Shown piece after piece: positions 3,001 to 26,755 of a DNA stretch of 26,755 bases. Each line of letters starts with the position of its first letter. The stretch's first letter is position 1. The stretch spans positions 1-26,755 of the IMG/VR virus record IMGVR_UViG_3300009428_000056. One strand, 5' to 3'. Made by a program: the position numbers and the translations under genes. A model generated the notes under the pieces. It had not been told where the DNA came from, did no database searches, and saw only the letters and a program-made list of their open reading frames with translations. This DNA is from a virus.

Positions 3001-5066
3001 ACATAGGATGGGCGCAAGGAGTACTAGGAGATGTTGTACGTAAGAAGGGTGAGGCAGCTAAGAGAGCTAAGGATAAAGCTTTAGAGGACGGGTTGAGCGA
3101 GGAAGAGGCGAATAAAATAGCCGATCAAACACTACGTGCCGGTAGCGCCATAGAAACTATAGTACAAGATGCCATGTTGGAAGCAATGCCGGAACGTTCT
3201 TTGGAAAGAGCTTTCAAGAAAAGACAAGACACTAGTGGGGCACAGCAAGATGCTATAGATGTATTCCGACAACGTATGCCAGCGTTTATGGGACAAGTAG
3301 ACAACATACGATTTGACATCCCTCTTACACAAGCGAGTAACAGCTTAGACCGAGTAGCTAGTAAAGCAAACGGTACAGACGACCAAGAATACGCACAGCA
3401 GATTGCAAAACAAGGTAAAGACTACATAGCTTTTGTAAGAGACCCTCAGATAGCTTCTTACACACGCCGATTGAAGAGTGCGGGTTTCTTGATGACGTTA
3501 GGTTTTAATATGTCATCTGCTGTAGTTAACTCATTTATTCTGCCCGTCGCAGTACTGCCTTTCTTAGCAGGCACGTATGGATTCCGCGAATCTAGTGCAG
3601 CTATGTACCGCGCTATGAAACTCTACATGGGTACGGGTATGCAGCGTAGGTTACAACCGTTTGGCGGGGCGCCGGAAGGTACAGAATTTGACGGGCCTTC
3701 GCTAGCCAACCTCGACCCGGAAAACTTACCTGAAGAATATAAACCGTATAAGGCTCTAATAGAAGAACTTGTTTCCAGAGGTGCGGCTAACGCATCGACA
3801 GTCGGAGACATGCTTGACACTGATAATCCAACGGGCGGCGCGTTTGATAGGAACCTAACCAGAGTTAATGCTATTTCAGGATTCTTGTTTCACCAAGGCG
3901 AACGCCTCAATCGTCAGGTCACTGCCATGGCTGGTTATGATTTAGCAATGGCAGCTCAAAAAAAGAAGAACAAAGGAGCTGAAGTAACCGAAGAGCAAAA
4001 GAACGACATAATAAGCCAAGTAATACTTGATGTAGAGCACACCAACAGCGGGGCGTTAATAGAAACCGCACCAAAACTTGCCCAAGGCAATATCCTTAGT
4101 GTGCTACTCATGTATAAGCGGTTTGGTGTTTCTATGGCCTACCTACAAATGAAAATGGCTAGACAAGCTTTGGGAATTGGCAACTACTCTGAGCAACAAA
4201 ATAAAGAAGCTAAAAAACAATTGGTTGGGTTGTTCGGTATGTCTGGGTTACTAGCTGGAGCGCAAGGGTTGCCGTTATACGGTGTTGTTGCTGCCACTGC
4301 TAACATGTTATTCCTAGACGAAGAAGACGACGACTTTGATAGTTTGTTCGCGGCTTATATAGGCGAAGGACCGTATTCGGGCGTGCTTAATGAAATATTC
4401 GATATGGACATAGCCCCGCGTATTGGTATGACTAACTTATTGTTTAGGACACTCCCTAACAAAGAGTATGACGGGCTACTTGAGTACTCTATGGAACTAG
4501 CTGGGGGGCCGCTGTTTGGTATCGTAGGACGTATGTCTCGTAGCGGGACGCTACTAAAAGAAGGTGAATACCGTCGCGGTATTGAAGGGTTACTTCCTGC
4601 TGGTTTATCCGCTCCGCTCAAGAGCATTCGTTATGCAACCGAAGGAGTTACTACACTGCGCGGCGATCCTATTATAGAAGACATGTCTATGCGGTCTCTT
4701 ATGGGACAGTTCTTTGGTTTTGCTCCAGCGGGCTACACCAAGCAACTAGAAATCAACGCTCGTGATAAACGCGTAGATCGCACGATTACTCAAAAACGTA
4801 CCAGACTTCTTCGTGAGAGATATGTGGCGTATAGAGTGGGCGATTTTGATGGCGTCCGTGAAGCAGATCAGGAAATCCAAGAGTTTAACCAGCGTAACCC
4901 TGAAGTAAGAATTACTGGGGACACCAAGGCTAGGTCACTACGGCAGCATAAGATTACTAGTCAGATAATGCGCCAGCTAGGTGGTATAACGATCAGCCCA
5001 CGTAGGTTAGAAAAAATAATTCGGAAGAGGTTAGAAGAGACAGGAGAAAGCGATTTTTTCTTATAA
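3..5066 (+). CDS. Giant phage polyvalent/internal virion-type protein with zincin metallopeptidase motif (5' end missing)
   Basis: The frame is open from position 3 with no stop, so the true start lies upstream; at least 1,687 residues are visible. Numbering from the TTG at 66, the first ~330 residues are Ala/Glu/Gln-rich and low in complexity. A zincin motif follows: HEALH at 479-483, with EFVAEAF at 523-529 supplying a plausible third (Glu) ligand. Residues ~700-1130 are helical and charged and include IEPYFPLFRKGDFWY, a type of motif I associate with large phage polyvalent proteins. Hydrophobic stretches near 1145-1180 and 1385-1420 could contact membrane or line a channel. Such proteins are usually packaged in the capsid and ejected with the DNA. 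Peptidase activity is inferred from the motif. The gene is the only rightward one here and converges on the leftward operon, consistent with a late structural gene. Sure of a phage giant protein; less sure of domain boundaries. Confidence 0.8.
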   Translation, partial: QELKELGLTSKKLKDGLPKLDLANPADAQAAIELIVKYAENPTVKSKYKANRMKALGLLNMPVLTRVEREAAQESGQQSAEGQITEQITTDEGAKRTEEDIAYAGRAEQLAGLQRQDDLKTELSGKQEAAQQAAVERAASLPEGTPTAMEAAMQPELARGVSVEGQQQLEMSGVEPRDAAAQETIVSADLNQQIASEQRALEASESQGQEQIAMLGPRGGVTPEAKGKGARKQPAAPAEAAPAAQQETAPEAEAEPVSESAAVEEKVAAAPPQARDRVAEAAAKAKEAKEAKLAASRADAAIAREEQNQRTANQADLKNTTEQYELDAEKFKEEFGEIADNTEDRAVFLAALADESINGNAKQKAAAQAKIEIINESFSQDVKDDLVAAQNSIRRDLKLPLPARALAATSIALEPEVVELLREGKLVEALDILAQSKNKEVARVAKAVSLAILEDGGTKVTLESNLMGTDGRLLAGTFDPKTNTIIINKDLTPTAHVLLHEALHAVTSHELANKSSPITKQLQTLFDNVKDRLEDSYGATNLDEFVAEAFSNPEFQAKLASMDTKGNKLPVWKQFVNAVLNAVRKALKIPFTKTTTARSEVDKLVTELMSPAPEYRNATRLNMAATAKEEGKLLGDVLDNFGGPVTKEMVKQFNDTMPGLTRTRRQWFMNILPLNSIADFIKDSENSTLRELGGELDSLFKIIQQKNGSRQEYLLKTKDTAKLLDKLFAKLGDAQRKLFNKIVMASTLRRVDPSRDREYYEKFRFSYIDQDGKEVRGEQLFDTKEERDAAVAKLQAADTKKELTFAVTDPNAGKLEQYDLLEKDFKDLDPEAQKAYSTLRDAYSEAYTELRMAIVERINAVDAVTEEALFAKRAYKDRVLKDLLNKESIEPYFPLFRKGDFWYNHQGFDPYTGNLEQFKAAFESDKKREEYAREVFIVSRQPILDSKITTVVEPRDAAIKRAKAKGATDQEAEDAGVEAVLEGTRAERPTNARGEKTAVDIGWAQGVLGDVVRKKGEAAKRAKDKALEDGLSEEEANKIADQTLRAGSAIETIVQDAMLEAMPERSLERAFKKRQDTSGAQQDAIDVFRQRMPAFMGQVDNIRFDIPLTQASNSLDRVASKANGTDDQEYAQQIAKQGKDYIAFVRDPQIASYTRRLKSAGFLMTLGFNMSSAVVNSFILPVAVLPFLAGTYGFRESSAAMYRAMKLYMGTGMQRRLQPFGGAPEGTEFDGPSLANLDPENLPEEYKPYKALIEELVSRGAANASTVGDMLDTDNPTGGAFDRNLTRVNAISGFLFHQGERLNRQVTAMAGYDLAMAAQKKKNKGAEVTEEQKNDIISQVILDVEHTNSGALIETAPKLAQGNILSVLLMYKRFGVSMAYLQMKMARQALGIGNYSEQQNKEAKKQLVGLFGMSGLLAGAQGLPLYGVVAATANMLFLDEEDDDFDSLFAAYIGEGPYSGVLNEIFDMDIAPRIGMTNLLFRTLPNKEYDGLLEYSMELAGGPLFGIVGRMSRSGTLLKEGEYRRGIEGLLPAGLSAPLKSIRYATEGVTTLRGDPIIEDMSMRSLMGQFFGFAPAGYTKQLEINARDKRVDRTITQKRTRLLRERYVAYRVGDFDGVREADQEIQEFNQRNPEVRITGDTKARSLRQHKITSQIMRQLGGITISPRRLEKIIRKRLEETGESDFFL

Positions 5067-5161: not shown

Positions 5162-8029
5162 CTACATATCGTTTTCCTCTGGTGGTTCCACAACCTTTGC
5201 CTCACTCCAATCTAACTTAAGCACATAGGTGGGGGGTAAATTAAGCCCCGGTATCCCTGTACTTAACCTGTACTTGTCATCCCTACCCCCCAATTCTTCG
5301 ACTATCAAACGGCGCATGTGGCTGTATTCCAGCTTTCTATTGCCGCACCACTTCTTAAACGGGGTTGGTAACATGTACATGACACTAGTATTTACCTCTA
5401 TCCTAGCCACAATCTTATACAAGGGTTTCTCATACTCCGTTGCATAGACCGCTAACTCTGGGTCATCAGTAGGTTCCGTACTGTCTATCTTGATTACATT
5501 GCGGTTATTTTCGGCTAGGTACTGGGCCAAGATGTCCCTAATATCCAGCACTGCCGCAGTAGATTCGTTGCGTGCCTTCTGCAACATCCTGCAAACCCAA
5601 TCTTCTAGGTTAGCCATGTTGAGATCATGCAGTCCTAATCGTTGCGCAATACTCATCCCAGTTAATGCAGCGGAAGCTTGCCATAGCCAAAAGCGGTTTT
5701 GTGCTGTCAGCCCCGTACGGTCTATGAGTTTATTTACGTAAGTAAGTAGCAATCCTTCGGCGGCTTTCTGATGCTTCACAATTTTCTTCATGTAAACTTC
5801 CCCAGCCCACCCATAGTTATTTTCCAATAACTTACCAAGAGCTATACCTTCTCTGGTGGTTTCAGCATCTTCTTTAAGTTTTACCAACGTTTCTGTTTCC
5901 AACAGACGTTGTGCTTCTCCCTTTGGGTTGGCCCTATAGTCTGTGGAGATCGTGTCTAGAATGCCTGTATTCCCACTTGTCGGTACCAGAGTAGACCACG
6001 GTTTACCTCTGTGGCGCTCTACAGTCTCGCCAGAGTTACCTTTCAAACGATTCCGTTGCATCCCTCCACTTACGTTATAGCAAAAGTCACTAAGGGCTTT
6101 GCCATCTTTGTTGGATAACTCGTCTAAGTAAACAACAATATTTTTATAGGTCTCTGTAACTTTCCACACAGAAGCCAACGTATCATCCCCTTTCTGTACT
6201 ACTAGAGAAGGGTCACCCCATACTGAAGCACCAGCGAACTGACCATGAGATTTGCCGAAGCCCGACTCTGTGCTTTTCAAGTGAAAAATACTGCCAGCTA
6301 TTTTTGGTGCAAAGATCATAAGCGGTGCAGCAAACGAAAGAGCAAACATATATTGGTGTGGCTCAAATCCCGGTTTATCAAAGAACTTAGGGAGTTTTTT
6401 CCACTCTTCTAAAGTCCCAGCTTTATCAAAATGACAAAAGTAATTTTCTGTATTACTACTGGGGTAGTTAGGTCTAACCTTGTCCGCAAATATCTCTCGG
6501 TCACCTAGAATGAAAGATTTGTTGCCCGCAGTCCAACCGAACTGTTCAGCTACAGTATGCTCGTCCATGTGTTCTTCAGCCTCATCGACAAGAGCCGCCA
6601 CAAAACCCATGAGGAGGTTTGGTTTCATAGTAAAGACACCCCGTTTGGTCATCTCTACTTTGAAACTTTCTGTGCCAACAAGTTTGTAAGCCGGAAGCAT
6701 AAAGTCTCGGATACCCTGTCGCTTAGTGTGGTGCCTAAAGATAAAAGAAATACCAGACACCCTGTCGCGTAACTTACGTATAATATATAAGTCGGTGCTA
6801 AGGATTTCTTTTACTTCTGTATTACCTTCTTTTATCTCCCTATGCCCTATGCCCCCACCTTCATACCTGAAGTACGGCTTCGGGTACTTAGGTATCTTAA
6901 CCGTAGCGGGTTTCTCGTCAGGGTTCTCTGTATCGAATACAGCTTCACTACTTTCAGGAACTGCGACTGTGTAGCTTTCCTCAGACGCCTCGTTTGGAAC
7001 TACTGCTAGGCTTATCGGGCTTTTGAATCTGTCGTTGCCCTTGTGTGGACAACCTTCACACCCCTCTGAGTACTCCTCTTCAAACCGTGCGCAACTGTGC
7101 GGTGCCTCAATGGTACGCGCTACGTTGTTAGTTTCTTCCTCAGTGTAATCTTCATACCCACTGGATATAGCGTGCACGTTTTCCATACCACGCGCTTCGT
7201 TTATATCTATGTCGGAGAACTTTGCTATGGATATAACATGCGTCCACAGAGCGTAACTTATTGTATTGGGTTCACGTATTGCTCTGTCTATCTGAGCGCA
7301 ACCCTCCCCCTTTACTGTCTTCTCTAACAATACGTCAAATCGTTTTATCACTCTGTTGCCCAGAGCGTTCTTCATGTCCTCCTGATCTTCTTCTGAAAAT
7401 TCTTGTATAGAGAGAACTGGCATCAAATCCTTTGGCAGCTTGGAGGAAAACTCTTCCAAACTTATTACGCCATCGTTATGACTGTACACAGTGCAATCTA
7501 AAGGGGGACTAGTCTTGTGGTTGCGTGTCCCGGGCACGCGTAATATCCGAGCGGCATCCGCAGTAACTTGTACGTCTGCTTTAAACCCTGCGTGTTTGCA
7601 GGTCCTCTTTAATTGTCCCGCAACGGCAACCCATTCGTCTTTACCGTACGGTTTATCTAGCACCCAATAAACATGCCAGCCACGCCCTGAATCAACAATG
7701 ACGGACGGTTTTGGCAGGGTGTAGCGTTTTGTAAATTCTTTTAAAGCTGTGTAAGCCTCTGTCTTAGCTGGGTAGTCTTTTCCTTCACCACAATCTATAT
7801 CAAGGAATAAAGTCTTTAACTGCTTAACATTGTTTTTTTCTCGTTTCTCTGTCTTAAATGTAGCTAACGCTACGTACACGTTATTATCATTTTTGTTAGC
7901 AGTATTTATGTGGGATAGAGCGTCTTCTTTTGTTTCTGAAAACTTTACATTAATCCCATCTTTCATTCCGACTGTGCAATAAAAACCCTCACTTCCTAAG
8001 ACAGTATCCAAAAACTGTCGAGTATCCAT
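5162..8029 (-). CDS. PrimPol (archaeo-eukaryotic primase)-helicase fusion protein
   Basis: A 955-aa protein that probably primes and unwinds DNA at the phage fork. The N-terminal AEP/PrimPol domain (about 60-200) shows the three expected motifs: LFLDIDCG with D77 and D79, SGRGWHVYW with H119, and RILRVPGTRNHK (161-172). Cysteines at 313, 324 and 327 (C-x10-C-x2-CP) look like a small metal or Fe-S site between the domains. The C-terminal half is a DUF927-like helicase/ATPase: Walker A STESGFGKS (K593) and Walker B IVVYLDELS (D636, E637). It is the last gene of the leftward operon, 63 nt after the SSB gene. The ATG lacks a clear Shine-Dalgarno sequence. No separate DnaG- or DnaB-type gene is visible, so this protein probably does both jobs. 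Motifs are seen directly; the division of labour is inferred. Confidence 0.88.
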   Translation of the reverse strand: MDTRQFLDTVLGSEGFYCTVGMKDGINVKFSETKEDALSHINTANKNDNNVYVALATFKTEKREKNNVKQLKTLFLDIDCGEGKDYPAKTEAYTALKEFTKRYTLPKPSVIVDSGRGWHVYWVLDKPYGKDEWVAVAGQLKRTCKHAGFKADVQVTADAARILRVPGTRNHKTSPPLDCTVYSHNDGVISLEEFSSKLPKDLMPVLSIQEFSEEDQEDMKNALGNRVIKRFDVLLEKTVKGEGCAQIDRAIREPNTISYALWTHVISIAKFSDIDINEARGMENVHAISSGYEDYTEEETNNVARTIEAPHSCARFEEEYSEGCEGCPHKGNDRFKSPISLAVVPNEASEESYTVAVPESSEAVFDTENPDEKPATVKIPKYPKPYFRYEGGGIGHREIKEGNTEVKEILSTDLYIIRKLRDRVSGISFIFRHHTKRQGIRDFMLPAYKLVGTESFKVEMTKRGVFTMKPNLLMGFVAALVDEAEEHMDEHTVAEQFGWTAGNKSFILGDREIFADKVRPNYPSSNTENYFCHFDKAGTLEEWKKLPKFFDKPGFEPHQYMFALSFAAPLMIFAPKIAGSIFHLKSTESGFGKSHGQFAGASVWGDPSLVVQKGDDTLASVWKVTETYKNIVVYLDELSNKDGKALSDFCYNVSGGMQRNRLKGNSGETVERHRGKPWSTLVPTSGNTGILDTISTDYRANPKGEAQRLLETETLVKLKEDAETTREGIALGKLLENNYGWAGEVYMKKIVKHQKAAEGLLLTYVNKLIDRTGLTAQNRFWLWQASAALTGMSIAQRLGLHDLNMANLEDWVCRMLQKARNESTAAVLDIRDILAQYLAENNRNVIKIDSTEPTDDPELAVYATEYEKPLYKIVARIEVNTSVMYMLPTPFKKWCGNRKLEYSHMRRLIVEELGGRDDKYRLSTGIPGLNLPPTYVLKLDWSEAKVVEPPEENDM

Positions 8030-8092: not shown

Positions 8093-8791
8093 TTAGTCGT
8101 CAAACTCATCAAGCATAGAAGACAAATCGTCATCAGCCGGAGCTTTTTTCTTATTCTCACGTACCTTTGGTTCTTCTGGTTCTTCTTTAGCAGCTTCTTT
8201 AGCGGCTTCTTTAGGTGCTTCTTTAGGAGCATCAGTGGGGACAGCATCAAACACACTGTCTTCGTACTGGGTGAACCCTTCTTGGGCATCAAACACAGAA
8301 CCCTGAGTGTTCTCTTTAAGTTTAATAACTTGTACTTGACGCAAACGTAGAGAAACACTGCTGCCCATACCACCGCTATAAGGGATCATCTCTACAAACA
8401 AGTTTACAGTGCTGCCTGTAGTGAGTTGGAAACCCTCGGATAAAGGCTTAGTTGCAGCGTCAAACTGTTTAGGCGGGTTATTATAAGAAGCAGCTATCTT
8501 AGCTTTGCCTACGATACCGCCATCTTCGGGCTTCTTAAATGGCATAGACATACCGGGCCAATCATCTTCCCGTGCTTCTTCGTAAGCACTAGTCATGCCA
8601 GCTAATAACTCTTTAGCTTGCGCTTTGTCCATTTTAAAGCTCATGCTGTACTCAGCGCCTTGATCAGTAGCAGCGCAAGGCATACTGCCGCCTGCCCCAT
8701 TCTTACCGCCCTTCTTATCAAAATGGTAGGGCTTGTCTAGCCGTGGATATAACGCTTCCACACCGCGTATCATAAAAGTATTTTTGTTCAT
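8093..8791 (-). CDS. Single-stranded DNA-binding protein, T7 gp2.5/DUF2815-like
   Basis: A 232-aa protein that would coat single-stranded DNA during replication and recombination. The N-terminus (FMIRGVEALYPRLDKPYHFD) matches the opening strand of phage gp2.5-like OB-fold SSBs, which typically read 'xYPxLxxPxxxFD'. A long predicted beta-rich core follows to about residue 160. Then comes a Lys/Glu/Ala/Pro linker of short repeats (APKEAPKEAAKEAAKEEP) and the acidic tail DDDLSSMLDEFDD, the usual protein-interaction tail of phage SSBs. It lies between the four-cysteine protein and PrimPol in the replication operon. A GAGAG-type ribosome site sits close upstream of the ATG. The linker repeats are also visible as tandem DNA repeats near 8171-8230. 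Confidence 0.85.
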   Translation of the reverse strand: MNKNTFMIRGVEALYPRLDKPYHFDKKGGKNGAGGSMPCAATDQGAEYSMSFKMDKAQAKELLAGMTSAYEEAREDDWPGMSMPFKKPEDGGIVGKAKIAASYNNPPKQFDAATKPLSEGFQLTTGSTVNLFVEMIPYSGGMGSSVSLRLRQVQVIKLKENTQGSVFDAQEGFTQYEDSVFDAVPTDAPKEAPKEAAKEAAKEEPEEPKVRENKKKAPADDDLSSMLDEFDD

Positions 8792-8857: not shown

Positions 8858-9628
8858 CTATTCTTGAATGTATACTCCTTCCCCTTCAACGACATCGAAT
8901 ACATTTGCAACATCATTGTTCTTTGAGGTGTTAGATTTAAAAACAAGTTTCACTAATTCCTTAGTGTCTGGGTCTTTCTGTGCGTGCATAGCAATTAGAA
9001 TCTCATCTTCCTCCAATGGGCGTACTGCTTTGAAATAAAGTTTAGGTATGTTGGAATCTGTATCAAACCTAGCCTCTACAAGAACAGTAGCTATCGGAGC
9101 TTTGTTGTTATTCAAATACTTTGCAAACTCTTGCATTGACATCTTCTTTTGGTCTTTACCAAAAATACTGGTAGACGGAAGGTCAAGTTGGTATACCGTG
9201 CCATCAGTAAGCTCACTATTATCATTAGCTAACATGATTGCGATGCGTTGCCGAAATCGACAAGCACGGGAGTTACCTTGCCCGGAACCTTTTATGTTTT
9301 GCTTACAATCAAAACATGTGACGTGTTGTTTACCTTCAGAGACATTATTAGAAGGTCTCCCACTCGCATGATCGTCAGACCAACAAGTGGGGGCATTACG
9401 TTCGCCGGAAACGAACTGACCAGCATAATACATTCTGGAGATTGGTGCAGTCTTTACTATTACAATTTTAAGAACACCCCCCTCCAATACTTCCGTCTCT
9501 CTACCACTAACTACCTTGCGAAACGCGCTCTCTCGAATACTTATTCGATTGATCTCTGACTTTGAGGTCTCAGGTTTTAGCTTAGAAAACAAGTTCTTAT
9601 AGCTATTGGGTAATTCCTCAGAGGTCAT
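8858..9628 (-). CDS. Conserved-type phage protein with four-cysteine metal site, next to SSB
   Basis: 256 aa, no named family recognised. Residues 82-123 contain C82, C105, C108 and C123 within TCWSDD, TCFDCKQNIKGSGQGNSRAC and an Arg-rich stretch (RFRQR), which looks like a structural zinc ribbon with a nucleic-acid-binding edge. The remainder is predicted as mixed beta strands and includes a FGKDQKKMSMQEFAKYL segment. The gene overlaps the preceding HTH gene by 11 nt and lies directly before SSB, so a role with single-stranded DNA or recombination is plausible but inferred from place and the basic zinc site only. Alternatives are a replication accessory or a transcription factor. The ATG at 9628 lies just inside the upstream reading frame. 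Confidence 0.7.
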   Translation of the reverse strand: MTSEELPNSYKNLFSKLKPETSKSEINRISIRESAFRKVVSGRETEVLEGGVLKIVIVKTAPISRMYYAGQFVSGERNAPTCWSDDHASGRPSNNVSEGKQHVTCFDCKQNIKGSGQGNSRACRFRQRIAIMLANDNSELTDGTVYQLDLPSTSIFGKDQKKMSMQEFAKYLNNNKAPIATVLVEARFDTDSNIPKLYFKAVRPLEEDEILIAMHAQKDPDTKELVKLVFKSNTSKNNDVANVFDVVEGEGVYIQE

Positions 9629-9956
9629 CGTCTAATTCCGACAACATCTCTTCGATATTAGCCGTACTGCCGGGCTTCACTTCTTGCTCTAGTGCAGCAA
9701 TAGTGTCCTCCAGCATTTGCTTACTCACAGCTTTAGCGCGTTCAGGTTGTTCCTCATGCTGACCTTCGGCTTCTTCAGGCTCTTCTTTTCGTAGTGCGAT
9801 AACAACATCTTCCACACAGAAACGATAAGTATTACCAGCTTTTATATAAGTACTACGTGGGACGAACCCACGCTTAACCCACTGCCTAACTGTAGATACT
9901 TTGACACCTACATGCTCGGCTAGTTCTTCTAAAGTAACGTATTTTGTATCGGCCAC
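9618..9956 (-). CDS. MerR/excisionase-like HTH DNA-binding protein with acidic tail
   Basis: 112 aa, GTG start. Residues 5-55 form a helix-turn-helix of the MerR/HTH_17 (Xis-like) type: YVTLEELAEHVGVKVSTVRQWVKRGFVPRS, followed by a YRF beta-hairpin and VEDVVIAL. The rest is acidic and probably disordered, ending in NIEEMLSELDDDL, strikingly like the SSB C-terminal tail. The start overlaps the preceding stop as TAGTG and the stop overlaps the next gene, so it is translationally coupled on both sides. With no integrase visible, a replication or transcription role fits better than excision, though a temperate phage cannot be excluded. The fold is clear; the function is inferred. Confidence 0.75.
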   Translation of the reverse strand: MADTKYVTLEELAEHVGVKVSTVRQWVKRGFVPRSTYIKAGNTYRFCVEDVVIALRKEEPEEAEGQHEEQPERAKAVSKQMLEDTIAALEQEVKPGSTANIEEMLSELDDDL

Positions 9957-12868: not shown

Positions 12869-13548
12869 TACCTTCTCCCGTTATGAGGACATTCTAGAAT
12901 AATGCAATGGGCCTTGCACAATCCAGTAGGTCTGGGGTTCCACACATTAGTTGTGAGAGTTTTTTCCAAAGTCCCATATTTTGTTAACCATTTCTTCCAC
13001 AACTCCGATTCATCTTTTCGTTCATAAGTTTGTTTAACCAACTTGTTACACACAACAAACAACAATCCAGCTTTTACTGTGTGTACTTCTGGGAAGTGTT
13101 TGAACACACACAACGTCATAAGTTCTAATTGCCCCACGTCAGCGTACTTGGCAGACTTACCTGTCTTGTAGTCAAACACTTTAGCTGTTCCTTTCTCTCT
13201 GTCCAAGATGATTAGATCAGCTACGCCTCTGTACCAAACGTCGGCCCCAAAAAATTCACAAGGTTCCAAGTTAGCGGTGATACCCATTTTGTATTCACAT
13301 AACTTCTCACCCGGCATTGTCAGTAATTTGTCTAGGACGTTCTGTGAGTAATCAAATCGGGGGTCTAGTTCGTTAACCACTCCCCCCACGTAATCTTCTG
13401 CTGCTTGATGGTACTCATTGCCGTACCGCATAGCTTCAGTACTAAAGTTTTCTTTGTAATCTTTAGCTACTTTTAAGTGGTAATACTTTTTCGGACATTG
13501 CTCAAAAGTTTTTAGGCTACTGAACGACCATGTTGTTCTTGTACCCAT
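12868..13548 (-). CDS. Cas4/RecB-like PD-(D/E)XK exonuclease with four-Cys Fe-S site
   Basis: A 226-aa nuclease if started at the ATG at 13548, chosen because GGAGAG lies about 10 nt upstream and the overlap with the polymerase gene falls to 37 nt (the frame is open further to 13635). Motifs: SFSSLKTFEQCPKKY at the N-terminus (C18), GNEYH (H47), GVADLIILD (D111), VFDYKTGK (D126, K128) and GQLELM (Q140). Cysteines 211, 215 and 220 with C18 give the four-Cys arrangement of the Cas4/AddB Fe-S group. It probably resects DNA ends for recombination or genome processing. No cas1 or repeat array is present, so it is a phage nuclease, not part of a CRISPR locus here. Confidence 0.88.
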   Translation of the reverse strand: MGTRTTWSFSSLKTFEQCPKKYYHLKVAKDYKENFSTEAMRYGNEYHQAAEDYVGGVVNELDPRFDYSQNVLDKLLTMPGEKLCEYKMGITANLEPCEFFGADVWYRGVADLIILDREKGTAKVFDYKTGKSAKYADVGQLELMTLCVFKHFPEVHTVKAGLLFVVCNKLVKQTYERKDESELWKKWLTKYGTLEKTLTTNVWNPRPTGLCKAHCIILECPHNGRR

Positions 13549-15389
13549 TCTATGCACTCTCCATAATTTTTCCCAATCTCCACGTCTCCACAGACAGGCA
13601 GGCCAGAGGCCCATTCGGGGACATAAGCCATACAAGAGTCTATGTAATTACAAGCTTCTGTAACTTGTTCGTCAGGTACACAGCATACCACAGAGTCGTG
13701 GACGGTTAACAAAACCCTATATTTCTTCTGTATTTCCAGCATTTGTTCTGCCATTACACAACGTGCTATGGCTTGGCATACATTTTCAATAACTTTACCG
13801 CCGTATATTTTAATATACCCCATACGGGTCTTGTAGGCATACTGCTCTCTACCGTCCTCGTCTAGCTCCATCTTTAGTTTGGTGTAGTACATGCTAAGAC
13901 CGGAGGGTAGCTGGACAGCCCTATCTCTTGGTAGAAGTTTAAGTACCCCTTTCTTACCAAGTTTTGTTATCGCGTTGTTGTTTAAACACCACAGCGCAGT
14001 ATTAGCACTTCGCCACAACTCGGTAATCTTACTGTTGGTGCTACGATAGGCATTTATAATCCGACGGCATTCTTTCTCGGCAACTTCTACACCAAACGTT
14101 TTTAACTGTTCCCGAAACCGTGCAGCCCCCATCCCGTACCCAGCCCCAAGTATCGTGGTTTTGCCTATAAACCGTTGTTCTGGTGTAACGTTTCCTACGT
14201 TGGTTTTGTATATACTTGCAGCCATTATCTTGTATACATCTTCACCACGCTTGAACGCTTGAACTAGGTCGTTCTGTTCTGCCAACCACGCAAGCACGCG
14301 TGCCTCTATCTGAGCAGAATCGGCTTGGATTAGGGTATGCCCTTCAGGGACGCAAATACATGATTTCAACACCTTTGCATTTGGCCCCCGTGACGGTAGG
14401 TTTTGTAGGTTAACCTTGTCAGAACCGCCCCAGCGTCCGGTGTGCGCTGCGTAGTATTTGATAGGAACTGGCATCTTCTTTCCGCGAGTAGCTATATCCA
14501 AGAAACGTTCTGTTCTTGTTTCTTCTAAAGTACTTTTCAAACCTAGCCTCGCCGCTACTAGTGTCTGTACTTCTATGTCCTCGTGTTCTTTTAGTGCCTT
14601 GAATCCCTCGTCCGTCTTGGCGAACGCATAAGTTTCCTTACCTGTACGTGCACTGATCTTTATTGGAGGTTCCACACCAGCCTCACGCAACAACCCTGCA
14701 AACTTGTTGTTAGACATCAGGTTCTCTAACTCAACACCACTCTCTAGAAGAAGTTTCTCTTTCTGTTCTTTAAGCCTGTCGAGATGGCTGTCTAATTTAC
14801 CCACGTCTAACTCAAGCATTGGTTCAATAAACATACGCAGGGTCATGTCTATTACTTTGAGTTCTATCATGGGGAACCCACGTTTCTTCATAAAGATAGT
14901 GAACAGTTTATACGACAACTCCACATCGTTTATGCAGTAATCGCCGTACTCTGCTAATTCTTCTTCGGTAAAATCTGACCTTCTCTTACCTTCTGCTTTG
15001 AGCACCTCGGTTCCTTTCTGCCCGATGCCATACATATCAGACAACGCCTTAAGAGATGCCCCAGCCTCCACCCCATGAAGAGCACGCCCCATACTGAGAG
15101 TATCAAAATAAACCCTACCCCTAATGCCAAACAGCCAATTAAGAATAGCCCCATCAAACAAAGTATTGTGAGCCAGTATTGCAGAGTTAGCCCAATCGTA
15201 CTCATCTTGTAAATAAGTTTTGAGATCATCGAACGTCCCACTCAACCATTTGGTTTCGCCATCATTAACTTTTACAGCGAGACCTATGACTTCAAAGTCG
15301 GGGCTACGTACGTACTGCTCAGTAGTTAACTTGCTAAAGCCAAACGTCTTACTGTAATAAGTTTCAAAGTCTACGGTTATTACATCCAT
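13512..15389 (-). CDS. polA: Family A DNA polymerase with 3'-5' exonuclease
   Basis: A 625-aa replicative polymerase. Exonuclease: VDFET (D7, E9), NTLFDG (D79) and YCIND (Y151, D155), all DEDD residues present. Polymerase: TGRW (317-320) and NLQNLP; motif A QADSAQIEARV (D357, E362); motif B R406-x3-K410-x3-L414-x3-Y418-G; motif C VHDS (H564, D565). The residue equivalent to E. coli Phe762 is Leu414. The third residue of motif C is Ser instead of the usual Glu. No 5'-nuclease domain is present, as is normal for phage PolA. The ATG overlaps the stop of the preceding small gene (TAATG). It is the core enzyme of the operon, with exonuclease, helicase, SSB and PrimPol downstream. Confidence 0.95.
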   Translation of the reverse strand: MDVITVDFETYYSKTFGFSKLTTEQYVRSPDFEVIGLAVKVNDGETKWLSGTFDDLKTYLQDEYDWANSAILAHNTLFDGAILNWLFGIRGRVYFDTLSMGRALHGVEAGASLKALSDMYGIGQKGTEVLKAEGKRRSDFTEEELAEYGDYCINDVELSYKLFTIFMKKRGFPMIELKVIDMTLRMFIEPMLELDVGKLDSHLDRLKEQKEKLLLESGVELENLMSNNKFAGLLREAGVEPPIKISARTGKETYAFAKTDEGFKALKEHEDIEVQTLVAARLGLKSTLEETRTERFLDIATRGKKMPVPIKYYAAHTGRWGGSDKVNLQNLPSRGPNAKVLKSCICVPEGHTLIQADSAQIEARVLAWLAEQNDLVQAFKRGEDVYKIMAASIYKTNVGNVTPEQRFIGKTTILGAGYGMGAARFREQLKTFGVEVAEKECRRIINAYRSTNSKITELWRSANTALWCLNNNAITKLGKKGVLKLLPRDRAVQLPSGLSMYYTKLKMELDEDGREQYAYKTRMGYIKIYGGKVIENVCQAIARCVMAEQMLEIQKKYRVLLTVHDSVVCCVPDEQVTEACNYIDSCMAYVPEWASGLPVCGDVEIGKNYGECIEWVQEQHGRSVA

Positions 15390-15574
15390 TATAAGGTTCT
15401 ACTTTCTTCTAAAATTTTGTCGTACAAGTTATCAAGGTAGGCACGCCAATCTTGTAGGATGTCTAGTTGAATAACAAAATGCTCGTCATGAAAATCCTGC
15501 AAAAGGTTTACTTCACCCTCCCCTGCGTTGGGGTCATAGTGTAAAATTCCATATTCCCAAACTTCTTTTTTCAT
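15389..15574 (-). CDS. Small acidic protein coupled to DNA polymerase
   Basis: 61 aa, unrecognised. Rich in Asp/Glu with aromatic residues (VWEYGILHYDP, FHDEHFVIQLDILQDWRAYL). Its TAA stop overlaps the polymerase ATG, so polymerase translation is probably coupled to it. GAAGAGGG lies upstream as a ribosome site. Confidence 0.55.
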   Translation of the reverse strand: MKKEVWEYGILHYDPNAGEGEVNLLQDFHDEHFVIQLDILQDWRAYLDNLYDKILEESRTL

Positions 15575-23140: not shown

Positions 23141-23341
23141 TTACTCCACCTCCGCGTCAGTTGCATGGTAGCCGTAGTTATCGGCCCAGCTCTTCTGTGC
23201 TGCTGTCATGCCCTTCCAGTTCTCGATCCAGTAACCGCGCTGGGGTACGTTGTAGCACCGTGTTACCGGCGTCCCTTTCGGGATAGTGGCTAACTTGCCA
23301 TAAGGCATACTGTTGTAAACAATTTTGTGCTTGGTTTTCAT
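23141..23341 (-). CDS. Small unknown protein, 66 aa
   Basis: Basic, starting MKTKHKIVYNSMPYGKLATI, with an aromatic middle (CYNVPQRGYWIENWKGM). GAGGAAC is the ribosome site. It is the first gene after the origin-like region and is served by a near-consensus promoter at 23483-23511. A perfect 18-bp palindrome sits in its 5' leader, so it is probably regulated. Function unknown. Confidence 0.6.
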   Translation of the reverse strand: MKTKHKIVYNSMPYGKLATIPKGTPVTRCYNVPQRGYWIENWKGMTAAQKSWADNYGYHATDAEVE

Positions 23342-23372
23342 AACTTGTTCCTCGTTGTTGTTGGGTTTAAAT

Positions 23373-23390
23373 GTTAGGCCATGGCCTAAC
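23373..23390. promoter_or_regulatory. Perfect 18-bp palindrome, copy 1
   Basis: GTTAGGCCATGGCCTAAC lies in the leader between the 23.5-kb promoter and the 66-aa gene, followed by seven T on the + strand. Two further copies lie within 1.6 kb. It is a candidate binding site for a dimeric regulator or replication protein. Confidence 0.7.
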
Positions 23391-23482
23391 TTTTTTTAAA
23401 GGTTGCACGTCCCTGTGCTGCTTCATTGCTCGGTGATGCTGATCTAAAAGATTCCTGACTCCATGACTACAAATGAATGCCC

Positions 23483-23511
23483 AGTATAGCACATTACGAT
23501 GTGTTTGTCAA
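23483..23511 (-). promoter_or_regulatory. Near-consensus sigma-70 promoter with operator-like spacer
   Basis: On the - strand TTGACA (23506-23511), 17 nt, TATACT (23483-23488). The spacer holds an inverted repeat CACAT-TACG-ATGTG (23490-23503) that a repressor could use. It drives the operon starting with the 66-aa gene and probably running into the DUF3150/AAA+/VWA group. Confidence 0.8.
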
Positions 23512-23559
23512 GTCGGCTCAACCAAACTGCAAAGGACTGCATTAGGCTGCGTATATGGG

Positions 23560-23621
23560 GTAAGTCATTGATTTGTTTGATGTAACATTTTGGGTTTTTG
23601 GTAACTCATTGATTTGTTTGA
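23560..23621. repeat. 21-bp direct repeats
   Basis: The unit GTAAsTCATTGATTTGTTTG plus A occurs at 23560-23580 and 23601-23621 with one difference. The spacing is 41 bp and the following bases are loosely similar, so the true unit may be about 41 bp. Confidence 0.85.
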
Positions 23622-23636
23622 GGTTAATTTTGAAAA

Positions 23637-23654
23637 GGTTACAAAGGTTACAAA
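23637..23654. repeat. Tandem 9-bp iteron GGTTACAAA x2
   Basis: Two perfect adjacent copies. Similar GTTACAAA-type words recur nearby (around 23812), giving a family of degenerate iterons. Confidence 0.75.
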
Positions 23655-23692
23655 GGGGGTCAAAAAACTCCTTGTAAATCAAGCGTGTAACT

Positions 23693-23714
23693 TTTGTGAG
23701 GTTTGTGAGGTTTT
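23693..23714. repeat. Left arm of inverted iteron array
   Basis: Two copies of TTTGTGAGG plus TTTT. It is the exact inverse of the array at 23942-23963 over 22 bp, so the pair could bring two protein complexes together or form a large stem around the AT-rich core. Confidence 0.85.
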
Positions 23715-23941
23715 CTAGAGAGGCATTGCAGTTTAGGGGGAGAACACTCTCACTAAACTATTTCTCATACTAGTGAAAAAGAAAGTTAGAAGGTATTAGG
23801 TACATATATAAAAAGTTACAAAAAGTACAATATATTATTATTAATTATTTTATATATAAGTTTTATACAAACAAATGTTACCCAAATGGAAAACAACTGG
23901 GTAAATATGCAAAACACTTTTGTTCTTTTTCTTCTTCCGGT

Positions 23942-23972
23942 AAAACCTCACAAACCTCACAAACCTCACAAA
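23942..23972. repeat. Right arm of inverted iteron array
   Basis: Three perfect tandem copies of CCTCACAAA (23946-23972) preceded by AAAA. The first 22 bp are the inverse complement of the left arm. Confidence 0.85.
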
Positions 23973-23990
23973 GGTCTTTTGGGCTAAAAA

Positions 23991-24008
23991 GTTAGGCCAT
24001 GGCCTAAC
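23991..24008. promoter_or_regulatory. Perfect 18-bp palindrome, copy 2
   Basis: Identical to the copy at 23373-23390, immediately right of the iteron array. Here the T run is on the - strand side. Confidence 0.7.
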
Positions 24009-24043
24009 ATTTATGAGGCAGAGAGGTACCAACAAAAGTACCT

Positions 24044-24073
24044 GAGACAGTAAGCAGAGCTGGAACTGGCTTC
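24044..24073. repeat. Diverged copy of the intergenic element
   Basis: Shares GAGACAGTAAGCAG and GGAACTGG-TTC with the three better copies at 24082, 24979 and 25924. It lies next to the first full copy, like a decayed tandem duplicate. Confidence 0.5.
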
Positions 24074-24081
24074 GCACGGGG

Positions 24082-24122
24082 GAGGCGAGGCAGCACGCAG
24101 CTTGGGAACTGGTTTCTTCAGG
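24082..24122. repeat. Conserved intergenic element, copy A
   Basis: Contains AGGCAGCACGCAG followed by GGGAACTGGTTTC. It directly follows an intrinsic terminator in the direction of leftward transcription, as do the other copies. Confidence 0.75.
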
Positions 24123-24125
24123 CAC

Positions 24126-24152
24126 AAAAAAAGGGAGACCTTTCGGCCTCCC
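24126..24152 (-). terminator. Intrinsic terminator after the 200-aa gene
   Basis: On the - strand GGGAGGCC-GAAA-GGTCTCCC (8-bp stem with one G-U, GAAA tetraloop) is followed by seven T. It lies 23 nt past the stop codon of the 200-aa gene. Confidence 0.9.
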
Positions 24153-24174
24153 TCTCAGTACTGCTTGGTCTAGA

Positions 24175-24777
24175 TTAACTCGCCTCGGGTTCGACCTCAG
24201 GTTCGAGATCAGTTAGAGACGTAATGAACGCGGCGCCGGTTTCGCAGATATTAACAACATTAGGAGAATTTTCGGCCTCCTGAACGTTCTCTACAAATTT
24301 ACCTACTGCCGTTGCCATTGCCTGATACGGCGTAATATCAACTTCGGGCTCTACCTCGGATTCGGCATTGGTCTCAGTCTCAGTCTCAGACTCGGTGGTA
24401 GCAGGGGCTACGGGAGCGCGCCGTTCCATGGCCTTCTTAAACTTAGAGACCAAACCACCCAAATCCTTCGCCGCGCTAGATTTGAGAACCTTCTTAACAT
24501 CCCATTCTTGCTCAGTGTAATCTTCTTTCTTGGAATCCAAGAGATTACGTTCGGAGGCGGGCATACCGGCAAGCATAAATGCTTTCACTTGATCCCGTAT
24601 CGGATCGCCTTTTACGACCATCTCGGCGCGTACTCCTTCGGCATAGGCGGCGTCATAAGCTGTAGCCCTAGACTTCGCAGTACTGTACGCACTTCTAACA
24701 GAGGTAGTTAACAGCTTGCCGGTGTCGACAGTGATAACCATAGTTTGCACTACAATTGGTTCATCTTGATTTTGCAT
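24175..24777 (-). CDS. Unknown 200-aa protein with acidic repeats
   Basis: Unrecognised. Residues 1-115 look like a folded domain with helices (TAKSRATAYDAAYAEGVRAEM, FMLAGMPASERNLLDSKKED). An acidic Thr/Ser/Glu tract (ESETETETNAESEVEPEV) leads to a helical end and a second acidic tail EPEVEPEAS. The tract is encoded by short tandem repeats. The gene forms its own unit, with promoter-like and inverted-repeat sequences upstream and an intrinsic terminator downstream. It could be an early host-interaction protein, by position only. Confidence 0.6.
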   Translation of the reverse strand: MQNQDEPIVVQTMVITVDTGKLLTTSVRSAYSTAKSRATAYDAAYAEGVRAEMVVKGDPIRDQVKAFMLAGMPASERNLLDSKKEDYTEQEWDVKKVLKSSAAKDLGGLVSKFKKAMERRAPVAPATTESETETETNAESEVEPEVDITPYQAMATAVGKFVENVQEAENSPNVVNICETGAAFITSLTDLEPEVEPEAS

Positions 24778-24864: not shown

Positions 24865-24884
24865 ACTCTTTTATAGTCTTTTAT
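24865..24884. repeat. Two phased decamers upstream of the 200-aa gene
   Basis: ACTCTTTTAT and AGTCTTTTAT lie in tandem with a 10-bp period. They are a short version of the decamer arrays at 25831-25880 and 26672-26711. Confidence 0.55.
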
Positions 24885-24891
24885 ATAAGTA

Positions 24892-24907
24892 TTAGGCCAT
24901 GGCCTAA
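24892..24907. promoter_or_regulatory. Palindrome, copy 3 (16 bp)
   Basis: TTAGGCCATGGCCTAA, the same core as the two 18-bp copies with the outermost pair changed. It lies between a conserved intergenic element and the decamers of the next promoter. Confidence 0.65.
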
Positions 24908-24978: not shown

Positions 24979-25023
24979 GGGAAGGTGGGACAGCACGCAG
25001 TTCGAGAACTGGTTTCAGGAGGG
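24979..25023. repeat. Conserved intergenic element, copy B
   Basis: 45 bp, differing from copy C at 25924-25968 at only five positions. The centre carries CAGTTC-GA-GAACTG, a 6-bp inverted repeat, followed by GTTTCAGGAGGG. It directly follows a leftward terminator. Confidence 0.85.
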
Positions 25024-25754: not shown

Positions 25755-25838
25755 CCTGTTTTAAAATTTAGTATCAACTCAGATTTCCCTGTCGATGGAT
25801 GTATACTCTCATAGTCCTATAGTATTGTCAAGTGCTTT
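25755..25838 (-). promoter_or_regulatory. Promoter-leader cassette, copy 1
   Basis: About 84 bp nearly identical to 26596-26679. On the - strand it holds TTGACA (25826-25831), a -10-like GAGTAT or AGTATA 17-18 nt later, then a conserved leader ending AAATTTTAAAACAGG before the gene. The -10 is not consensus, so an activator may be needed. Confidence 0.7.
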
Positions 25839-25880
25839 ATAGTCTTATTTAGTCTTTTATAGTGCTTTATAGTCTATGCA
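25831..25880. repeat. Five phased decamers upstream of the -35 box
   Basis: AGTGCTTTAT, AGTCTTATTT, AGTCTTTTAT, AGTGCTTTAT and AGTCTATGCA lie end to end with an exact 10-bp period, touching TTGACA on the promoter side. Helical phasing at this place suggests an UP-like or curved activating tract. Confidence 0.8.
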
Positions 25881-25923: not shown

Positions 25924-25968
25924 GGGAAGGTGAGGCAGTAAGCAGTTTGAGAACTGGTTTCAGGAGGG
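25924..25968. repeat. Conserved intergenic element, copy C
   Basis: 45 bp, 40 identical to copy B. It lies between a leftward terminator and the promoter-leader cassette, the same place as the other copies. Confidence 0.85.
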
Positions 25969-26595: not shown

Positions 26596-26679
26596 CCTGT
26601 TTTAAAATTTAGTATCAACTCAGTTTTCCCTGTCGATGTATGTATACTCTCATAGTTTTATATTATTGTCAAGTGCTTT
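26596..26679 (-). promoter_or_regulatory. Promoter-leader cassette, copy 2
   Basis: Nearly identical to 25755-25838, with TTGACA at 26667-26672 and the same leader. The duplication covers only control sequence; the genes behind the two copies are unrelated. Confidence 0.7.
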
Positions 26680-26711
26680 GTACCTTTGTTTAGTCTTTTA
26701 TAGTGCTTTGT
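26672..26711. repeat. Phased decamers upstream of the second cassette
   Basis: AGTGCTTTGT, ACCTTTGTTT, AGTCTTTTAT and AGTGCTTTGT with a 10-bp period, next to the -35 box. They are less regular than the first array. Nothing further is recognisable from 26712 to the window end. Confidence 0.65.
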
Positions 26712-26755
26712 ATCTTATAGACGATAGGGCTTCTTTCTATGGGATAGGGTTAACC

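Follow-up and report, generated by a model that had tools for sequence, protein, structure and literature searches.

What is the function of the DNA at 23342–24174 in this phage? The window, by which we mean the whole 26.7-kb phage record analysed here, carries a minus-strand replication operon that runs from 22984 down to 5162. The region of interest lies between the first gene of the early operon, 23141–23341 (minus strand), and the gene 24175–24777 (minus strand) with its terminator. A first-pass annotation had described repeats concentrated in this gene-free stretch and had proposed a candidate phage origin. Every element that it named was recovered in place, and nothing supports as a gene the 91-codon frame in the ORF list at 23850–24125 (minus strand). 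The features of the region are as follows.

23342–24174, no strand: intergenic region of 833 bp with no conserved ORF, read here as a putative replication origin and early control region
23483–23511, minus strand: early promoter TTGACA-17-TATACT with a TG extension, kept in L010, L012, and L013
23559–23590 and 23600–23631, no strand: imperfect direct pair, 32 bp each, 84% identity, partly kept in relatives
23637–23654, minus strand: two TTTGTAACC (GGTTACAAA on the plus strand, at 23637 and 23646), related 9-mers
23693–23710, plus strand: iteron array 2, two TTTGTGAGG in the orientation opposite to array 1, copies starting at 23693 and 23702
23777–23876, no strand: AT-rich core, presumed unwinding element, 85% AT, conserved in the alignment of relatives
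23946–23972, minus strand: iteron array 1, three TTTGTGAGG at 9-bp spacing, copies at 23946, 23955, and 23964
24126–24152, minus strand: terminator of the gene 24175–24777, a hairpin at 24133–24152 with a T run, from the sequence

The region was compared with 500 dinucleotide shuffles of the same stretch (834 bp). It contains five copies of TTTGTGAGG (shuffle mean 0.02, maximum 1), a lag-9 identity run of 21 (mean 4.9, maximum 8), and a longest inverted repeat of 28 (mean 9.4, maximum 13). The analysis thus confirms the repeats, which exceed by a wide margin what chance would produce. The arrangement of two plus three inverted 9-mers about 230 bp apart around an AT-rich core, as first described, was also found; the gap between the two arrays is 235 bp. 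The 100 bases from 23777 are the most AT-rich of the window, and outside the region the AT content reaches at most 75%. Two features expected of an iteron origin are present here: short repeats in direct tandem, in excess of chance, and an AT-rich element next to them. The 21-bp direct repeats of the first description do exist, but they are only the core of the imperfect 32-bp pair. Each copy of this pair contains one match to the IHF-type consensus WATCAANNNNTTR, and these are two of the four matches in the window.

The early promoter is strong, lies inside the region, and reads out into the replication operon, with the opposed arrays 180–460 bp upstream of it. An origin of the DnaA-box kind is unsupported, since no box of full consensus was found. 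Close to the region, the cumulative GC skew changes direction; here, however, it tracks gene orientation, so the skew is no guide to the place of an origin. A dispersed element, CCAGTTCYCNNNCTGCGTGCTGCC with 0–4 mismatches, occurs on the minus strand at 24046–24069, 24089–24112, 24989–25012, and 25934–25957, behind the ends of several small operons, and has copies also in G001, G002, and G008. Similar stretches of the CTTTATAGTCTTTTATAGTG type are located upstream of small right-end genes (24872–24890, 25836–25880, and 26672–26712) and are perhaps repeated promoter regions.

Relatives of the phage were found by a scan with its AAA protein and then by an alignment scan, at 33–82% identity (record G001 is the same as L012, G002 as L013, G007 as L014, and G008 as L015). 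The scan of bacterial and archaeal genomes gave no relatives of the AAA protein. Absence of the repeats from close relatives had been named in advance as evidence against an origin. The arrays, core, and promoter of the window can be aligned with those of L010, L012, and L013, where TTTGTGACA is found beside TTTGTGAGG. L057 and L069 have the layout of the window as far as their contigs reach, and in L069 AAAGGTACA repeats face TTTGTACC. The same layout is seen with another repeat sequence in L041, L043, L045, and L046. At the equivalent place, L043, L045, and L046 have 11 copies of AATGTTCC, four in one orientation and seven in the other, and L041 has eight copies of ATGTTCCA. In L041, L043, and L046, which were tested, the repeat counts exceed the shuffle maximum of 3–4. 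In L012, L013, L015, and L047, the most frequent iteron 8-mer has no more copies than the shuffle maximum, so the claim for these relatives rests on alignment and layout. The tandem 9-mer was also matched in L017–L025, and part of these matches may be due to chance. L015 has in addition a second perfect palindrome, TGTACCTAGGTACA, at 4534–4547 and 4970–4983, which is contained in a 36-bp inverted pair and flanks the AT core. In the distant relatives, then, the repeat has been replaced while opposed arrays around an AT-rich core have been kept. This is expected of a protein-bound origin and supports the reading of the region as one. Taken with the repeats and the core, it lends weight to the origin first proposed for this stretch.

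What protein might bind the iterons? The replication operon encodes a DUF927 protein, an Enc34-type ssDNA-binding protein, an HTH_17 protein, an SNF2 helicase, a PD-(D/E)XK nuclease, PolA, a DUF2201 protein, and the AAA protein, which is weakly similar to N4 gp24-like proteins. A large LPD39-domain protein converges on the operon from the left. No tRNA and no Rfam match were found in the window. The products that enter the argument below are these.

5162–8029, minus strand: DUF927 protein, presumed primase-helicase
8093–8791, minus strand: Enc34-type ssDNA-binding protein, match just under the Pfam cut-off
9618–9956, minus strand: HTH_17 (MerR/excisionase-like) protein with an acidic C-terminal tail, candidate iteron binder
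13512–15389, minus strand: family A DNA polymerase (PolA)

As had been noted at first sight, no plasmid-type Rep is recognisable; the proteins scanned gave no match to the Rep or O initiator families. The HTH_17 protein is in keeping with the suggestion of an HTH protein as iteron binder and is the best candidate for this role. It is present in seven of the 11 records searched, several of which are fragments. Its helix STVRQWVKRG is identical in close relatives and changed in L047 and L050; these changes follow the phylogeny, and they provide a lead and no demonstration. The candidate belongs to the same HTH superfamily as the winged-helix excisionase and Cox proteins (lambda Xis, P2 Cox). Proteins of the Xis/Cox type bind short direct repeats cooperatively. 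The HTH_17 protein differs from them in being encoded within a replication operon, in its acidic tail, and in the lack of an integrase.

The region resembles lambda ori, with its O protein, and plasmid origins of the RepA type in having short tandem repeats next to an AT-rich, presumed unwinding element and replication genes of the phage close by. It differs from known iteron origins in that the repeats are 9–10 bp long and form two opposed arrays around the core, and in that the candidate initiator is an HTH_17 protein, with no Rep or O homologue recognised. Judged from its sequence, it would be a new iteron-type origin, one with opposed arrays.

The region also contains a palindrome, whose copies in the window are listed here with the gene that one of them precedes.

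23986–24013, no strand: palindrome copy 1, AAAAAGTTAGGCCATGGCCTAACATTTA, 28 bp, upstream flank of the arrays
23368–23395, no strand: palindrome copy 2, 28 bp, in the early-operon leader, 26 bp ahead of the start codon (23341)
24892–24907, no strand: palindrome copy 3 (core), upstream of the candidate palindrome-binder gene
24175–24777, minus strand: 200-aa early protein, candidate palindrome binder, with an N-domain (about residues 12–120) of five helices

The first-pass annotation had seen an 18-bp palindrome at the edge of the stretch. This palindrome (GTTAGGCCATGGCCTAAC, with the core TTAGGCCATGGCCTAA) is present, but it is part of two identical 28-bp copies that bracket the region, and a third copy of the core lies outside it. 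The length of a single 18-bp palindrome is within that of the shuffles (maximum 20), while its exact repetition is beyond them. Because it was taken as an edge feature of one phage, its nature was missed: the palindrome is a multi-copy, lineage-specific element.

Most relatives have a multi-copy dyad of their own, in 2–12 copies, with letters that vary by lineage. The window and G001 each contain three copies of the class A core TTAGGCCATGGCCTAA, and no further copy with up to one mismatch was found in the 54.8 kb of G001. The class B core GTATCGCATGCGATAC occurs four times in L013 and twice in L014. In L013, the class B palindrome occupies the sites, and the sequence in between is still alignable. 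The palindrome of L057, TTATGCCATGGCATAA, is class-A-like, and L015 has six copies of TGTTAG-N8-CTAACA. All of the types examined, further forms included, are dyads. Most of the distant relatives have 3–12 copies of other dyads, with arms of the GTTAGGG and GTTAGTG types commonest and the highest number in L043. The cultured Rhizobium phage RHph_TM3_14A, whose PolA and DUF927 protein are related to those of the window and whose complete genome is deposited, has 26 copies of TTACC-N6-GGTAA (0.02 in shuffles), both intergenic and intragenic; the non-coding DNA richest in AT in this genome lies near 19.3–20.1 kb. L051, L052, and L016, the last of which has a single GTTATGGAAATTCCATAAC, showed no such repeated dyad, nor did the parts read of the Pseudomonas phages Rollin (L059) and KPP25 (L061). 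In L014 (262–277) and L015 (about 6570), palindromes are also found within the initial codons of the gene that precedes the AAA gene, and are thus translated there. In the scan of viral contigs, the exact 18-mer had no match, and the 16-mer recovered the family. Matches in L068 and L074 were rejected, as they sit in unrelated coding sequence, and L067 and L071 look unrelated too.

A positional counterpart of the 200-aa protein is found in the examined relatives that cover this place. The protein gave nothing significant in Pfam, PHROGs, or PDB sequences. Its AlphaFold model, which is confident over the N-domain, had no significant Foldseek match among solved or viral structures, and no DNA-binding fold was recognised in it. 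G001 and G002, which differ in palindrome class, share 18 genes, 16 of which are 83–96% identical, whereas the 200-aa protein is 33% identical (34% in the N-domain) and a 61-aa gene is 31% identical. The latter, located before PolA at 15389–15574 (minus strand), is 80% identical between the window and G001. L057 is a natural chimera, with an N-domain 86% identical to class A and a C-part 89% identical to class B. Here, the N- and C-parts are separated, and the class-A-like palindrome goes with the N-domain. L069 was found via its class B palindrome. In its N-domain, identity is 50% to class B and 26–33% to class A, and its terminase is 83–85% identical to that of class A-type phages; L069 may be another piece of the L014 genome, from the same sample. 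The N-domain tree joins G002 and L069 (90/100), with no branch fully supported, and a tree that places L069 outside class A plus G002 was not rejected in an AU test (p = 0.28). In a control tree of the AAA protein, the grouping of G002 and G007 was nearly rejected (p = 0.055). L041 and L047 have a common palindrome type, yet their positional proteins lack clear similarity. The 200-aa protein apparently diverges in step with the palindrome type, a covariation that rests on few contrasts, and the classes were compared once the palindromes were already known. The protein may read the palindrome.

Could the region be an early regulatory region alone, in which the 9-mers and palindromes are operators of early promoters and replication starts elsewhere? 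The strength and place of the early promoter described above would fit, as would palindromes that lie in a leader and ahead of a gene. However, the distance of the opposed arrays from the promoter, their position around the AT-richest DNA, and the retention of the opposed arrangement when the repeat sequence changes make this unlikely. Alternatively, the palindromes might be transcription terminators that insulate the region. The terminator scan found T runs after the copies at 23373 and 23991, on opposite strands, but a GC-rich hairpin with a T run is not found at every copy. T runs are lacking at the class B copies of L013, and on this ground the terminator reading was discarded. Furthermore, copy 2 of L012 would halt the early operon itself, and distant relatives have copies within genes and between genes of operons, so that we give this reading very little chance. 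RNA hairpins at translation starts would fit the dyads of L041, L043, L046, L047, and L049, where 23 of 44 copies end 5–70 nt upstream of a predicted start codon, such windows making up 8.4% of the sequence. However, copies 1 and 3 of the window lie outside any translation start region, and several copies in RHph_TM3_14A are in mid-gene, and an RNA role seems quite improbable.

The alternative to which we give real consideration, while leaning against it, is that a host protein reads the palindromes. Differences between hosts would then explain the types, and the 200-aa protein would only be fast-evolving or exchanged as a linked neighbour. Its gene does adjoin the region, the 61-aa gene also tracks class in G001 and G002, and the AU test leaves the alternative tree standing. 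Against this, the sequence between the palindromes was not exchanged with them, the palindrome of the L057 chimera goes with the N-domain, and L069 agreed with the expectation.

We consider it somewhat better than an even chance that the region is a phage origin fused to an early control region, with the HTH_17 protein on the arrays and the 200-aa protein on the palindromes. In this mechanism, a protein of the phage, with the HTH_17 protein as the most likely one, would bind the opposed 9-bp arrays cooperatively, and the binding would strain open the AT-rich core between them. The opened core would allow the DUF927 protein, the ssDNA-binding protein, and PolA of the phage to load. A separate dimeric phage protein, most likely the neighbouring 200-aa protein, would bind the palindromes, both those that bracket the putative origin and early promoter and the one upstream of its own gene. 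This binding would set early transcription, the firing of the origin, or both.

How does the palindrome compare with dispersed sites in other phages? The stoperators of Cluster A mycobacteriophages are lineage-specific. They are binding sites dispersed in the phage genome (PMC4351075). Stoperators are asymmetric, oriented sites for a lysogeny repressor, whereas the sites described here are symmetric. Temperate functions were likewise not found: seven records of the phage group gave no integrase match (PF00589), and HTH_3 repressor matches (PF01381) in the records searched were all below the cut-off, RHph_TM3_14A alone among these records being deposited as a complete genome. Cluster O mycobacteriophages such as Corndog, which have no integrase, carry more than 30 copies of a 17-bp dyad, TGTTCGG-NNN-CCGAACA, in and between genes; a dimeric protein is expected to bind it, and its function is reported as unknown (PMC4351075). 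The likeness lies in a single dyad with many genic and intergenic copies and in the lack of a recognised integrase. A dispersal of the Corndog type is seen in L043 (12 copies) and RHph_TM3_14A (26), whereas the window has only three copies, all near the candidate origin. Furthermore, the Corndog dyad is one sequence in closely related phages, while here the dyad (2–12 copies in relatives) has lineage types and a candidate matching protein.

We suggest, as a rather doubtful extension of these comparisons, that the palindromes belong to a typed self-recognition system. The N-domain of a new, all-helical early protein would read the palindrome of its own lineage, control its own replication or expression, and possibly tell the genome from that of co-infecting relatives. 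If this is so, the system would be found in a widespread phage group without recognisable lysogeny genes, with sites surrounding the origin and, in certain lineages, also at many gene starts. Dispersed dyads of the Corndog kind would become a testable pairing of lineage-typed palindromes with a named candidate protein, for which the natural class switches and the chimera are ready-made controls. For the family as a whole, the comparison points to an origin architecture in which the repeats turn over and the layout stays.
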